A stretch of DNA of 64,000 bases from Candidatus Enterovibrio altilux (GTDB lineage Bacteria; Pseudomonadota; Gammaproteobacteria; Enterobacterales; Vibrionaceae): NCBI RefSeq assembly GCF_002381345.1, contig NZ_CP020661.1:62001-126000 (forward strand), in the 5' to 3' direction. Numbering within the stretch: the stretch's first letter is position 1; every line of letters starts with the position of its first letter. The translations under genes were made by a program, and so were the position numbers. The notes beneath the pieces are model-generated. The model had not been told where the DNA came from. It was given only the letters and a program-made list of their open reading frames with translations, and made no database searches. Positions 20,122 through 29,972 of this stretch are shown here, in pieces.

Positions 20122-20645
20122 AATTTTGTTTCCTAACTCGAGTTCAGATAAAAAATTTCACCATAATAAACTATTTAAGTATTACTTTCATTTTAGGCAT
20201 ACCTAGCTCGGCCAGCTTGTTTAACTTTTTTATGATTGTGCAAATTCCACAAATATGAGCATGGTAATCCCTGAGGCTTCACATTCCGCTGAGTAGTTTT
20301 TTTAACTCGAAATCTTACCGTCTTTGATGAGGAACCTTTATAGTAACCATACCTCATTTTTCAAAACTAATTTTAACCATATCACCTCTGATAACTGACC
20401 GGCTTTATTTCTTGACTCGAGTTCAGATAGCAGATTTCAACATTATTCACCGTTAAACAATTGCTTTTATGTTAAGCATATCTAGCCTTGTCAGCTTATT
20501 TAACGCTTTCATCATAGCCTAGGTTCTATGAATCTGAATTACGGTGATACCTTAGGCTCAACGTCCCTCTCAGTAATTTCTTGACTCGAACCATTGCTGT
20601 CTCTGCTAGGGAACGTTTATAATAATCGGTTTTGTTCCCTATAAT
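20122..20645 (-). mobile_element. Two tandem IS903-group 3' fragments
   Basis: The first runs from 20122 to about 20400 (3' end, minus orientation). A second, starting GGCTTTATTTCTTGACTC at 20401, interrupts it and runs to the shared chimeric junction at about 20625 (AATCGG to TTTTGTTCCC). The 5' part of that copy is then lost. Confidence 0.8.
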
Positions 20646-20840
20646 AAATACATGGTTAGTAAGCTCTATTACGCAACACATTAAGAAGAAGAATTTAACT
20701 CTGCATACTCACTTAAAGCAACTCAAGAAGAAAACGATCAGATACACAGAATCAATGAAAATGCACGATACAGTAATTAGTAAATTCATTGTGTCTGAGT
20801 ATTATCTTTGGATTAAAATCACTTTATTAAATACATGACC
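20646..20840 (+). mobile_element. IS1-family transposase C-terminal remnant
   Basis: The frame reads NLTLHTHLKQLKKKTIRY, then KMHDTVISKFI and EYYL, the end of an IS1 InsB-type transposase (usually LRTHLKRLxRKTICFS, MHDKVIGxFIE). The 5' part and the outer repeats are missing. It sits at the left edge of the replication origin region. Confidence 0.72.
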
Positions 20841-20952: not shown

Positions 20953-21150
20953 TTAAATATTAATATTTTGCACACACTCACCAAAAAGCTCCTCCTTGAT
21001 CATCTTTCCATTATGAATAACACCACAAGGAAACATGATCAAGGAGAAATAGAGGACAATAAAACACCATTTATTCTCGTCCTTATAATCCTCAATATCG
21101 AAATAATGATCAAGGAAAGACCTTATGCTTTTCTTTAACATAATAGTCAT
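20953..21150 (-). CDS. Small ORF inside the origin region, possible rctA counterpart
   Basis: A 65-codon minus-strand frame (MTIMLKKSIRSFLDHYF at the start, internal CFIVLYFSLIMFPCGV). In V. cholerae a small transcribed ORF, rctA, lies on the far side of the origin from rctB and overlaps initiator-binding sites. This frame has the same location and orientation relative to rctB and overlaps three iteron-like motifs (20992, 21035, 21106). I cannot show protein homology, and rctA is thought to act through its DNA or transcription rather than its protein. Treat it as positional resemblance only. Confidence 0.25.
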   Translation of the reverse strand: MTIMLKKSIRSFLDHYFDIEDYKDENKWCFIVLYFSLIMFPCGVIHNGKMIKEELFGECVQNINI

Positions 21151-21452
21151 GGATCAATATTTATCACAGACAAAATGACGGTTTATGCCTTTTCAATACT
21201 AGACTTATCAACGTAAATATCCGTAATCAAAATATTATAGATTCAATAATTGCTACTGAAAAAATAGTATTGAAATACATAAGCATTTACTTGATCATTG
21301 TTTCAGTTACCGGACACATATTATCCTCCGGCTAAAATACGTCTCTGGTAAAATCAATTTGTGCAAATGAACTGAACTACGGACATTAATCTATGCATTC
21401 ATAGCCTAGTTCAACGGAAACACAGTCAAAAATGCATGTACTTGATCATTTA
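20992..21452. promoter_or_regulatory. Upstream cluster of RctB-type GATC motifs (origin control region)
   Basis: Five copies of a motif like CTTGATCAT or its complement: 20992-21003 (minus), 21035-21046 (plus), 21106-21117 (plus), 21290-21301 (minus) and 21441-21452 (minus). The first two form a perfect 12-bp inverted repeat (CTCCTTGATCAT and ATGATCAAGGAG) 31 bp apart. In V. cholerae the DNA between rctA and the minimal origin carries regulatory sites for the initiator (39-mers and extra 12-mers) that restrain firing. By position and sequence style this is the equivalent. Site-by-site function is inference. Confidence 0.72.
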
Positions 21453-21517
21453 TTCGAACTTAATCGGCAATAAATCTAAAAATAAAGGAAGCAGGACAGC
21501 AATAAGATACAATTTTC

Positions 21518-21526
21518 TGTGGATAA
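21518..21526 (-). promoter_or_regulatory. DnaA box
   Basis: TTATCCACA on the minus strand, a perfect consensus DnaA box, 15 bp before the first phased iteron. V. cholerae ori2 has a DnaA box at the same edge of its iteron array. Confidence 0.85.
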
Positions 21527-21720
21527 GTTGTGCGGTATCCATGATCATGCTTTTAATTAAATGATGATCATGCTTTCAAAAGATAATGATCATTTGTCCC
21601 ATTATACCCTGATCATTCTTTCAACGCCTATTTACAATTAAAGGTTTATATTCAATGTGTTAAGATTAAATAAAAAGCTAGATCATATAATCATATAATC
21701 ATATAATCATTTTTTATTAA
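21518..21720 (+). other. Chromosome II replication origin core (oriCII)
   Basis: Order on the plus strand: DnaA box (21518-21526); four 12-mers with central GATC at 21541, 21564, 21586 and 21609, spaced 23, 22 and 23 bp, so all lie on the same helix face; then an AT-rich stretch with ATCA at 21682, 21690, 21698 and 21706, an exact 8-bp period; then rctB 130 bp later. The 12-mers (ATGATCATGCTT, ATGATCATTTGT and relatives) resemble RctB iterons whose GATC must be Dam-methylated for binding. ATCA repeats in the unwinding element are what V. cholerae RctB binds as single strand. V. cholerae has six iterons; here I find four. Confidence 0.88.
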
Positions 21721-21852
21721 AAAATGGTTAAAATAGAACCTTAAAAAATTGTTCATTATCAAATTTTTCTATTACTCTTTTTGGAAAGATGGCTTAATTA
21801 CGGTCATATGAATTCTGGTTACTGCACAGGCTTAACAAGGAACTATGGTATA

Positions 21853-23835
21853 ATGGTTTCAAATGCATCAAAAAAAATACTAATTCCATGGCCTCGTTCT
21901 CACAAGGATGGTCACCTTTTTGAAATTCCTAGAAAATTACTCGATTGGTTGCCACAATATGAATATTTTAGGGGTGTAACAAAAAGTATTATTGAATTGC
22001 TAAACTTAATATTACTCCGAAGTTTTACATCAAAAGATGGCATAGTATCAACTACTGAGTTAATTGAAGCCACGGAAGGACAACTAACACGTGCTGCTAT
22101 TCAGCAACGTTTGCGTGCTGCCGTTCAAATAGGTTTATTTACCCAACAAAGTGTGAGATTTGAAGAAGGGTTAGCAGGTAAAACAATGCTGCACCAATTC
22201 GTAAATCCGAGTCAATTAATATCCATGTTAGGGTCTGCTAGTTTACAGTCTGAAAAAACTAAAGTAATGGCAAAGCAAAAACGTTCAAAAGCATTAGCAC
22301 AGAATTATGTAAATAAGCAATTATTAAACGAACATGGCTTAGGTACACCACCTATGATGCCAGATGAAAAAGATCAAATATTGATATCACCTACTAGTTG
22401 GGCTGGTATTATTGACCAAGCATTAGCCCCACCACGCACAAAAAAAAACTATCAAAAATCAATGGTTGCAATTAGTGGTACTAAAGCCATCATCGAAACC
22501 CGCTCTTCAAAGTCAATTATGACGGTAGATGATTTGATGACATTATTTGCATTGTTCACACTAACAGTGCAATATCATGATCATCATTTACCAAATTATG
22601 AGCTTCAAATCCAAAAAGTCGGCAATAAAACACCAGTATACATTACGGATATTTTGTCATTACGAGGCAAAAAAGACAGTGGTCCTGCCCGTGACTCAAT
22701 TCGAGAAAGTATTAATCGGATTGAATTTACTGATTTCCAATTACATGAACTTACGGGACGTTGGTTAAGTAAAAATATGCCTGAAGGGTTTAAAAGTGAT
22801 CGTTTTCGCTTTATTGCTCGAACAATTACGGCGTCTGAAGAAGCCCCAAGAGAAGGTGATGACGGAGAAATACGCATTAAACCGAATCTCTACATTTTAG
22901 TATGGGAACCATCATTTTTTGAAGAATTAATGACTCGAGATTACTTTTTTTTATTTCCACCAGAAATATTACGGCAACATGCTCTGGTTTTTCAACTTTA
23001 CAGTCTCTTCAGAAGTCGTTTATCACGTCGCTTAGAAGATTCACTTACTTTGACTGACCTAAATCAAAAAATCGCCAGAAACATTGAATGGCGACGTTTT
23101 TCAAACGATCTGATACGCGAACTAAGAAAACTGGCGAAACAAAAAACACAAAGCGAGGATATTTTTACTGTTAACTTATGGGGTTATCATATGATAGTCC
23201 ATCAATTAGACAATGATAAAAAACACCCAGATTATCGTTTAGACATCCGTTGCAACGTTGATGAAGTAATCAAATTTTCGCGTGCAAAAACGTTCAATGA
23301 GGGCAAACGCTCCTTGGCACCCACAATACCTAATCCACTTCGTAATGAGATAATGCCTAAGCAAAACCTTGATCAACTTTCTGAAATTATTAACGGTGAA
23401 TTTGAACCCATCCAGCAGAAAGAGAAACGTGGCGGTCGTTTAGGGCGTCGTGTTAAACTTCGTAAATACTTAGTTGAAATCAATGCGGATGAATTAACCA
23501 TTACTTTGTCGAAATACACTTCACCTGAAGCAATGAAACGTAGTATCACTGCATTATCGGCAATGACAGGCCATCCTCCTGTAACTATCACAGAAGAGTG
23601 TCAGGGTTACATGAATAAATTGGATTGGCTACGTGTTAATGGTGAGATCATGTCGTATGAAACTTTGAGCCGTACAATTGAGTTTTATAATGCACAACAA
23701 AACTCCGGACACCTTTCAATCGAGCGATTAATCTCTAGTTTAGCAGTACGTAAAAAAGTTTGTCGCAAAGTGTATGATGGATACCTTGATAGCTCTGTGC
23801 TCGCAGTGCTGGATGAAGTAGCATCTAGTGGTTAA
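21853..23835 (+). CDS. rctB: Chromosome II replication initiator RctB
   Basis: Initiator protein of Vibrionaceae chromosome II. It binds the iterons next door, opens the AT-rich region and represses its own gene. The 660-residue product matches V. cholerae RctB (about 658) end to end. Nearly invariant blocks include HKDGHLFEIP, GVTKSIIELLNLI, GQLTRAAIQQRLRAAV, FEEGLAGKTMLHQF, SPTSWAGIIDQALAPPRT, YITDILSLRGKKDSGPARDS, RFRFIARTITASEEAP, NIEWRRFSNDLIRELR and LVEINADELTITL. I choose ATG 21853 (MVSNASKK), which has AAGGAA ten bases upstream and fits the family N-terminus. An in-frame TTG at 21781 would add 24 residues without homology. The frame is uninterrupted, so the replicon probably still depends on it. 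parAB2, usually close by, is not in the window. Confidence 0.97.
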   Translation: MVSNASKKILIPWPRSHKDGHLFEIPRKLLDWLPQYEYFRGVTKSIIELLNLILLRSFTSKDGIVSTTELIEATEGQLTRAAIQQRLRAAVQIGLFTQQSVRFEEGLAGKTMLHQFVNPSQLISMLGSASLQSEKTKVMAKQKRSKALAQNYVNKQLLNEHGLGTPPMMPDEKDQILISPTSWAGIIDQALAPPRTKKNYQKSMVAISGTKAIIETRSSKSIMTVDDLMTLFALFTLTVQYHDHHLPNYELQIQKVGNKTPVYITDILSLRGKKDSGPARDSIRESINRIEFTDFQLHELTGRWLSKNMPEGFKSDRFRFIARTITASEEAPREGDDGEIRIKPNLYILVWEPSFFEELMTRDYFFLFPPEILRQHALVFQLYSLFRSRLSRRLEDSLTLTDLNQKIARNIEWRRFSNDLIRELRKLAKQKTQSEDIFTVNLWGYHMIVHQLDNDKKHPDYRLDIRCNVDEVIKFSRAKTFNEGKRSLAPTIPNPLRNEIMPKQNLDQLSEIINGEFEPIQQKEKRGGRLGRRVKLRKYLVEINADELTITLSKYTSPEAMKRSITALSAMTGHPPVTITEECQGYMNKLDWLRVNGEIMSYETLSRTIEFYNAQQNSGHLSIERLISSLAVRKKVCRKVYDGYLDSSVLAVLDEVASSG

Positions 23836-23908
23836 TAACCATAACATAAATTGTCGAGCATTGACATAAAGGGTACGATGATACGCTAACTAGGATTAAT
23901 GACGAATA

Positions 23909-25123
23909 GACTGTTTTTCTGAATGCGAATTCAAATAGCAAATCCCAACAATATGATTCACGATTAAAAAATAACTTTTATTTTAAGCATACCTAACCTG
24001 GTCAGCTTATTTAAAACTTTTATCAGACCGTAAGTTTCGCTAATCTGGGTATTATGATCTCTTAAGCTCAATGTCCCTCCTTGTAGTTTTGTGACTCAAA
24101 ACATTGCCGCCTCTGATAGGGAACGTTTATGGTAACTATCCTTCGTTTTCCAAAAGCTACTTTTTTTCTTGGTAGTATGAGTGGAGCTGCTCGTTTAATA
24201 CGAACGGTTGCGTAACATTGTGTAGTATCGTAAGTGCCATCGGTTGATATTTCATTGATTTTCGGCGGGTTTGTTTTAGTAAGTGAAGTAGCACTTCGCC
24301 CTAAGTCACATTTGATGCACTTAACTCAGCAGCAATAATTTTATCCGTATTTATATCTACCACTAAACGCAACTTGCACCAGACTCTCAGTTTTCCATCG
24401 ATACCATGCTTTTTTACTTTCTATTTCCCTTCACCGTAGACTTTAACCCCCAATAGAATTAATGGCTAAGTGCTGTATGCTTCCTTTATTCTTCGTCTTA
24501 AACGTGACGTTAATTGTTTTGGTTCGTTTGCTAATGCATGAATAGTGAGAGCATGGCAATGACAATTGAATAAATTTAAAAATAGAATTAATGCATACTT
24601 GCAGACCTCTCAATGACATTAAAATACGCATTTAATTATGAGGGCTGTCGTAATGGTTAAGTCGCTAAATAAACAAGGTCACCCATGATTACCTTACTTA
24701 GTTTGATCCTATAGCTGAATAACTTCTTCATCAATCCAGAATATGAGTGAACCACAATTGATTAAAGCTTGATTATACTGCTTTCAGTTAGTTGTTTTGT
24801 AGTGAAGATTATTCATAAACCTGAATATTTAAGCGGGTCTACTGTTTAGAGTGTTTATTGAGAACTTAGTTCTCTTGTTTAGGAAATAAAGCCTGTTACG
24901 ATAAAATGGTACCTAGCAGAGGCAGCAATGATTCGAGTTATAAAACTATTGGGGGGGAGAACATTACGCCTAAGGAATCACACAGCTTAGATTAGTGAAA
25001 CCTACGGCATGATAAAAATGTTACATAAGCTGACAAGATTAAATATACCTAACACAGAAGCAATTGTTTAATAGTGAATCATGTTGAAATTTGGTATCTG
25101 AACTGGAATTAGAGAATAAAGCC
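23909..25123. mobile_element. Chimeric IS903-group element, longest copy
   Basis: Minus-strand full-length IS from 23909 to about 24892, the shared junction (AAATAAAGCC joined to TGTTACGATAAAA), then the 3' end on the plus strand to 25123. At about 1.2 kb it is close to the complete chimera: one whole IS plus ~230 bp of inverted 3' end. The transposase is dead, with a 62-codon residual frame at 24443-24631. No 9-bp flanking duplication is visible. Confidence 0.84.
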
Positions 25124-25314
25124 GATAAGTTCAAAAATTTATTTTTTTATTTCCTCCGCATACCTCATGTATATATATAAATTGGAAGGTTCGACAACAT
25201 GTCTGACAATTATAATCTTGGTGTCCATCATGGTTAATATTGTTTCTGTATGCTGGTTAAAACATATTTAACGTCAACGATAGCTATAATGACCTCCATG
25301 AAAGCAAATATTTT

Positions 25315-29543: not shown

Positions 29544-29757
29544 AGGAAACATGATCAAAAGCAGGCTAAACTACGGCTGACGTCATTTTGATATTAAAAA
29601 TATGCAAGATCTCAGGCTTTGATGATTATTTACAACATAATTTGAGTCTAAGTAAAATAATGAATGTTGCAAAAAATTTTAAAAGAACTTGTTTTATAAC
29701 GATAAAAAATAAAAAGTAAATAACTTATACGGATGCATATAACTTGATCATCTTTCC
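29544..29757. promoter_or_regulatory. Ectopic pair of origin-type (RctB-like) motifs
   Basis: AGGAAACATGATCAA at 29544-29558 is identical over 15 nt to 21028-21042 in the origin. CTTGATCATCTTTCC at 29743-29757 is identical over 15 nt to 20995-21009. The word AACTACGG follows the first (29569) and also occurs in the origin region (21375). They sit 185 bp apart between an IS903-group fragment and an IS1 remnant, with no gene. It could be a diverged duplicate of origin DNA or a separate initiator-binding locus. Confidence 0.55.
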
Positions 29758-29972
29758 GTTATTTCTAAATCATGTATTCAATAAGTTGATTATATTTTAA
29801 AAGTAATACTTGCACTCAATAAATGTACCAATTGCTTTGTCATGTCTTTCCGTTAATTTTGAATATTTAATCATTTTTTATCGAGTTATTTCAAGCAAAT
29901 ACATATAATTACATCCTCTTTTTCAGTATGTTGCGTATAATACTTACTGCTAATGTATGGATTATCGGTAAA
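29758..29972 (-). mobile_element. IS1-family remnant
   Basis: Minus-strand relic of the IS1 transposase 3' portion, aligned by eye with the clearer copies at 63.2 kb and 51.6 kb (shared TCAATAAATGTACCAA and GTCATG regions). Heavily mutated, with no open frame. Confidence 0.55.

Follow-up and report, generated by a model that had tools for sequence, protein, structure and literature searches.

A four-iteron ori2 in 'Candidatus Enterovibrio luxaltus' on a 135-kb circle that is apparently its shrunken chromosome 2

Introduction

How little does a chromosome 2 origin (ori2) need before the chromosome that it serves is lost? The question is raised by a locus of 'Candidatus Enterovibrio luxaltus' CC26, a symbiont from the light organ of the deep-sea anglerfish Cryptopsaras couesii (PMC6020299), where a short array of repeats precedes the initiator gene rctB. 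The stretch analyzed, called the window here, has 64,000 nucleotides and corresponds to bases 62001-126000 of contig C3 (NZ_CP020661.1); ori2 therefore lies at about C3 83,500, and features are given in window numbering unless C3 is stated. The genome, 2,143,356 bp in total, consists of contigs C1 (1,604,691 bp), C2 (343 kb), C3 (135,458 bp) and C4 (59,689 bp). A first-pass annotation made from the letters of the window alone had recognized, rightly, a decaying genome and in it the chromosome 2 origin of a member of the Vibrionaceae. The RctB-type ori2 is itself already well known; that of Vibrio cholerae comprises one DnaA box, six 12-mers (iterons), a DNA unwinding element (DUE) that carries ATCA six times, a 29-mer, two 39-mers and parS2 (PMC6090056, PMC11711613). 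More surprising than the origin is the small circular replicon that carries it, which had been overlooked. We consider it very probable that this ori2 works as the chromosome 2 origin of 'Ca. Enterovibrio luxaltus', and that this chromosome has shrunk to a circle of 135,259 bp.

Results

The core of the origin begins with a DnaA box, TGTGGATAA, at 21518-21526 (an exact match, read as TTATCCACA on the minus strand), followed on the plus strand by four core iterons at 21540-21555, 21563-21578, 21585-21600 and 21608-21623. Their GATC words (21543, 21566, 21588 and 21611) run head-to-tail with a spacing of 23/22/23 bp. Scored with a matrix built on 120 iterons of relatives, the first, second and fourth, the last being proximal to the DUE, reach 20.2, 24.0 and 19.4 bits, and the third is weak, with 8.8 bits. 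The DUE, also on the plus strand (21682-21709), has four ATCA at a period of 8 bp, at 21682, 21690, 21698 and 21706. All these elements had been pointed out in the first-pass annotation and all are present; when the window was simulated 60 times with a first-order Markov model, no run contained three TGATCA at 22-23 bp or four ATCA at 8 bp.

The comparison set consisted of 47 rctB loci, all from named genomes; a motif walk was run on each, and five were also aligned base by base. The order DnaA box, iterons and ATCA-bearing DUE is found in 47/47 of these homologous loci, and the iterons of the window align with the RctB 12-mers of the relatives. Iterons were counted backwards from the DUE by a tolerant walk that allowed as many as 3 mismatches to TGATCANNNTTNC, and this gave six core iterons in every one of the 47 other Vibrionaceae loci and four here, as had been claimed. 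A strict count of TGATC, which found 3-5 iterons in some relatives, was dropped, since the tolerant walk gave six in all 47; an extra site 21 bp farther out, seen in the window and in five other loci (L082, L098, L118, L121 and L122), has 3 mismatches, was judged spurious and was not counted. As six is the count common to the relatives and not a demonstrated requirement, we regard the four-iteron array as a variant of the RctB-type ori2, and the proposed label of a minimal natural ori2, which makes a claim about function, as too strong.

From the DnaA box to the DUE there are 164 bp here versus 207-222 bp in the 47 others, whereas the distances at both ends of the array, 25 bp from the start of the box to the first iteron GATC and 70 bp from the last iteron to the DUE, are the same as in the Enterovibrio relatives. 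Because both outer distances are unchanged, the shortening lies inside the array and amounts to two 23-bp units plus one base. The alignment gap falls in iteron 2, which may combine part of ancestral iteron 2/3 with part of iteron 4, fused when two units were lost. In V. cholerae, a 5-bp shift of the DnaA box relative to the iterons greatly reduced transformation (PMC5872114), a result with which the preserved phasing of the box in the window is in keeping. The fifth and sixth ATCA of the relatives' DUE are mutated in the alignment; four DUE ATCA are also found in Vibrio sp. CK2-1, V. litoralis and V. rumoiensis, with a period other than 8 bp. Could the two missing iterons be an artifact, a six-iteron array collapsed during assembly? 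A tandem array, short reads and a single assembly would all favor such a collapse, but the relatives' array takes only about 115 bp from first to last iteron, well below the 250-base reads, and its units differ in sequence, and we therefore judge it very unlikely.

The gene rctB (21853-23835, plus strand) is intact, as first noted: from the ATG at 21853 it has 660 codons, and its product matches the Pfam families RctB_central (608 bits) and HTH_55 (184 bits). The frame is open from a TTG at 21781 or from the ATG at 21853, through 23835, and the ATG is the more likely start. RctB is 81-89% identical to the RctB of Enterovibrio and Grimontia and has one match only in the whole genome. Apart from it, no replication initiator was named by Pfam or NCBIfam scans among the 57 open reading frames (ORFs) of at least 150 aa on C3, at E-value limits that varied from 1e-3 to 1e-90 and with some ORFs giving nothing. 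In the RctB tree the protein is placed within Enterovibrio, where it and that of 'Ca. Enterovibrio escacola' stand beside E. norvegicus/baiacu with 89/92 support, the branching inside being unresolved. In a 2.6-Mb genome, putatively of Paraphotobacterium marinum, rctB is written in two frames that join near residue 370 (L241, G001:C2:980001-1000000), which could be a sequencing slip; a paper on this species reports that crtS was not found.

What, then, is the replicon on which this origin lies? An end-overlap comparison found both ends of C3 identical across exactly 199 bp, a length that we take to be k-1 of the Discovar assembler, and from this overlap C3 can be read as closing into a circle of 135,259 bp. 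Its gene content was compared with chromosome 2 (1.759 Mb, of which 1.599 Mb served as target) of G051, a congeneric genome in three contigs, with orthologs called among ORFs of at least 150 aa at 55% identity or more over at least 60%. On C3, 36/57 ORFs have an ortholog there, 34 at 65% identity or above; the figures are 1/167 for C2 (none at that identity), 3/33 for C4 and 11/162 (four at that identity) for 18 stretches sampled from C1 that cover 0.36 of 1.605 Mb. ParA2 (89%) and RctB (87%) rank first and second by identity among the 37 C3 proteins listed in this comparison. Of 28 retained C3 loci that were placed on the G051 map, nine are no more than 220 kb from ori2, four are at intermediate positions and 15 lie toward the terminus, at 660-880 kb. 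The generally essential gene nadE has its sole match in the genome on C3. It appears from these sequences that chromosome 2 has been reduced to plasmid size and is C3; at 135 kb the circle does not lie above the plasmid range, as a chromid would by the size criterion, and in 17 genomes of 2-3 contigs the smallest contig with rctB has 597 kb (G004).

The circle might instead be an ordinary plasmid that captured ori2 together with some chromosome 2 genes, the true chromosome 2 being the 343-kb contig C2. The Tra-like fragments of C3 would agree with this, but the contrast in chromosome 2 orthologs between C2 (1/167) and C3 (36/57) and the single RctB match in the genome speak against it, and so does the structure of C2. 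The start of C2 overlaps that of C1 exactly, across 112 bp and inverted, inside aceF, with aceE on the C1 side of the junction and the remainder of aceF and lpd on C2, an overlap that excludes C2 as chromosome 2. A single 20-kb segment taken from C2 matched the large contig, chromosome 1, best in 6/6 genomes, with minor second-contig matches in two. We hold the plasmid capture to be highly improbable, and on the gene evidence assign C3 to chromosome 2, and C1 and C2 to a chromosome 1 of about 1.948 Mb, not counting a gap of unspecified length. By size and closure, the published plasmid P1 would then be C3 and the published 'chromosome II' C2, so that the published replicon labels are probably wrong, the 343-kb 'chromosome II' contig looking like chromosome 1. 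If P1 is C3, the 1-3 copies per genome given for the plasmids in the assemblies section of PMC6020299 would apply to C3. At the far ends of C1 and C2 we observed a LapA domain and RTX repeats, respectively, with a 73-bp match at 79% between them; the two ends may be parts of one broken LapA/RTX repeat gene.

Around the core, the regulatory half of the origin was examined with a 39-mer matrix made from 39 sites in 20 Enterovibrio, Grimontia, Veronia and Salinivibrio loci (training median 47.5 and minimum 27.3 bits; highest score in 20 simulated contigs 12.9 bits). The second 39-mer, at 21150-21195 on the plus strand, has decayed to 26.0 bits, its core TTACGG having become TGACGG, and a weak 39-mer-like sequence at 21311-21356, on the same strand, scores 13.7 bits, near the simulated maximum (12.8 bits for its counterpart in E. 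escacola). The inc half (20995-21456) retains five iterons of 16.0-20.3 bits, at 20995, 21028 and 21099 (both on the minus strand), 21290 and 21441. Beyond rctB, about 8 kb from ori2 and flanked by dispersed repeats on both sides, the segment 29544-29758 holds a 39-mer-like site (29545-29590, 16.9 bits) and an iteron (29743-29758, 19.4 bits), which we read as the left end of inc, moved away from the rest. A putative 29-mer-like site for RctB autoregulation, aligned to the relatives, lies in the rctB promoter on the plus strand (21782-21817, approximate ends) with its core TTACGG intact. The genes parA2 and parB2, which adjoin rctB in G051, are found 38 kb from ori2 at C3 43,027-45,216, and TTTACAATGTAAA at C3 45,401 is parS2-like. 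Less than 5 kb from parAB2, at C3 36.1-38.5 kb, there are broken conjugation genes (TraG in two pieces, and TraH). The earlier view that the origin was complete, with its whole logic preserved, is thus borne out for the core elements and their order, and has to be given up for the weak third iteron, the decayed 39-mer, the displaced end of inc and the distant parAB2.

On C1, dam and seqA are intact, and a search with the published crtS consensus (PMC5854411) gave one exact match, at C1 1,391,457; when as many as 3 mismatches were allowed, one match was found in each of 16 genomes searched. Taking mnmG as ori1, the distance from mnmG to crtS is 359 kb, or 0.37 of the replichore, versus 0.38-0.51 in 10 other genomes, so the relative position of crtS did not follow the shrinkage of chromosome 2. 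The distance from crtS to ter1 minus the chromosome 2 replichore comes to 548 kb here and to 18-441 kb in ten others, and the same misfit to a slope of 1 appears in Salinivibrio-like genomes (G038, 441 kb; G009, 374 kb). A free regression on 10 genomes predicted 531 kb between crtS and ter1, with 615 kb observed. Given this regression and the Salinivibrio-like misfits, the claim that termination timing is an outlier depends on the model, and it is suggestive only that chromosome 2 would finish early under the published idea of end control.

A GC-skew inversion at this locus had been proposed as a check. Under a symmetric model, in which the terminus lies opposite the origin, C3 83,500, the site of ori2, ranks first among 270 positions, ahead of 84,000, and the amplitude of the skew was reached in 0/1000 block shuffles at 0.5 and 1 kb, in 0.2% at 2 kb and in 0.8% at 4 kb. 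To this extent the expected skew was found, but the unconstrained minimum lies at C3 90,797 (best-fit origin 90.5 kb), about 7 kb off ori2, and this is the first of several points that weigh against replication of the circle from ori2 as a chromosome 2. The skew maximum is not opposite the minimum, and co-orientation of ORFs with the fork is absent (28/57). The weakest iteron per origin in 20 relatives has a median of 16.7 bits and a lowest value of 7.3, a range in which iteron 3 stands low. RctB is altered at 14 columns that at least 95% of 43 relatives conserve; at the same columns E. escacola has 12 changes and four free-living relatives have 0, 0, 0 and 1, and from its 14 changes we take RctB to be evolving fast. 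The four-iteron array is known from one metagenome-derived assembly, with a depth of 14x in the table of PMC6020299, and the Tra-like fragments put plasmid-type DNA on the same circle as the chromosome 2 genes. In addition, the skew of the C1 sample says nothing for or against C2 as a part of chromosome 1 and was dropped as an argument: its sign changes, at 1.0-1.1 and 0.1-0.2 Mb, would make the two arms about 0.8-0.9 and 1.0-1.1 Mb long if C2 is included and 0.8-0.9 and 0.7-0.8 Mb long if it is left out.

Part of these observations could mean that ori2 is a dead relic and that the circle replicates in another way, as the loss of two iterons, the weakness of a third, the decayed 39-mer and the 14 unusual changes of RctB would suggest. 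Yet rctB is open at full length, ParA2 and RctB are the best kept of the C3 proteins listed, crtS is exact, the symmetric skew fits best at ori2 and the scan of the 57 C3 ORFs named no second initiator, all of which makes a relic very improbable and favors a working ori2. No exact matS occurs on C3 and 21 were found in the part of G051 chromosome 2 that served as target, and a dif-like motif gave nothing convincing on either replicon and was left unused.

Discussion

The elements retained at this locus suggest how the circle may be maintained. RctB would bind the Dam-methylated iterons and then open the ATCA-bearing DUE together with DnaA, and would repress its own gene at the 29-mer; ori2 would be licensed through replication of crtS on chromosome 1, and ParAB2 would segregate the circle from a distance of 38 kb. 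The two iteron units were probably lost at once, by slippage or by recombination between repeats. Fewer iterons should weaken initiation and fewer 39-mers should relax inhibition, and the two losses may therefore offset each other. The circle may persist because single-copy genes such as nadE are still on it.

This symbiont shares with V. cholerae a set of parts, namely RctB, iterons with GATC, the DnaA box, the ATCA-bearing DUE, the 29-mer, crtS on chromosome 1, dam and seqA. Unlike V. cholerae, 'Ca. Enterovibrio luxaltus' has four iterons, four ATCA, one 39-mer decayed and another displaced, and parAB2 at 38 kb, and its replicon measures 135 kb, not about 1 Mb. 'Ca. Enterovibrio escacola' MJ02 (L092), likewise an anglerfish symbiont, has between its iterons 4 and 5 the 22-bp spacing of the matching pair here; it differs in having six iterons (24/23/23/22/23), a strong 39-mer of 44.3 bits and an rctB contig of 62.8 kb that does not self-close. 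Its ori2 (L129-L132, G014:C24) is stretched too, with 6.4 kb from parA2 to rctB and additional sequence flanking the 39-mer on either side; extra DNA between par, inc and core is common to the two symbionts. The RctB chromid of Plesiomonas shigelloides (299 kb) is also small, with regularly spaced iteron-like repeats; it is larger than the circle, has six 8-mers and belongs to a different bacterial order (PMC8826520).

Across the family, RctB_central was found in 325/329 Vibrionaceae genomes. The four without it comprise two incomplete genomes (65 and 79%) and two genomes (G160 and G170) that are 99% complete at 1.0 and 1.1 Mb, Photodesmus-like in size and, as that of 'Ca. Enterovibrio luxaltus', reduced Vibrionaceae genomes of the size of luminous symbionts. 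Unlike it, these two have neither RctB nor crtS, the latter being present in the two incomplete genomes and in a control, nor a ParA2 ortholog (best identities 24% and 29% versus 74, 77 and 85% in three others); nadE is kept in both. The chromosome 2 system would thus have been lost in them, and they are a likely candidate for the end state.

Taken further, the circle may be a secondary chromosome in the course of dying, with more than 90% of its length lost, its origin shedding initiator and inhibitor sites in parallel, and crtS intact yet unmoved toward ter1; we see the case for this as evenly balanced. If it is true, the reason for keeping crtS would be licensing rather than synchronous termination, the Photodesmus-like genomes, which lack rctB, crtS and parA2 together, would show the end state, and 'Ca. 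Enterovibrio luxaltus' would stand between the Vibrionaceae with two chromosomes and the small genomes that lack RctB. For V. cholerae, iteron binding, inhibition by 39-mers and the timing by crtS have been probed with mutations; in the symbiont a natural deletion series would separate the minimum number of iterons, the dispensability of inhibition in a small replicon and the selection for termination synchrony, and would test in nature how far an ori2 can be pared down ahead of chromosome loss. The replicon labels of a published genome would probably be corrected as well. In the open-access literature on RctB and iterons, anglerfish symbionts, Photodesmus and small chromosomes, as far as it was accessible, we found neither an origin with four core iterons nor a 135-kb circular chromosome 2 of Vibrionaceae, nor a report of its probable mislabelling.

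The remaining contig, C4, has no exact overlap between its ends, although both plasmids are described as circular in PMC6020299; three short ParA-like matches of 41-46% identity were observed on it. Finally, remnants of dispersed repeats resembling insertion sequences (IS) border the origin, at its left edge (20122-20648, 56 other-copy matches on the contig) and downstream of rctB (23902-25131, 109 matches). Five flanks tested had a dispersed-repeat cover of 48-84% and 53-109 other-copy matches each, and a control gene had none. The CC26 genome is reported to hold very many degraded copies of IS5 (PMC6020299), and the repeats may well be IS5, recombination among whose copies would have split the origin.

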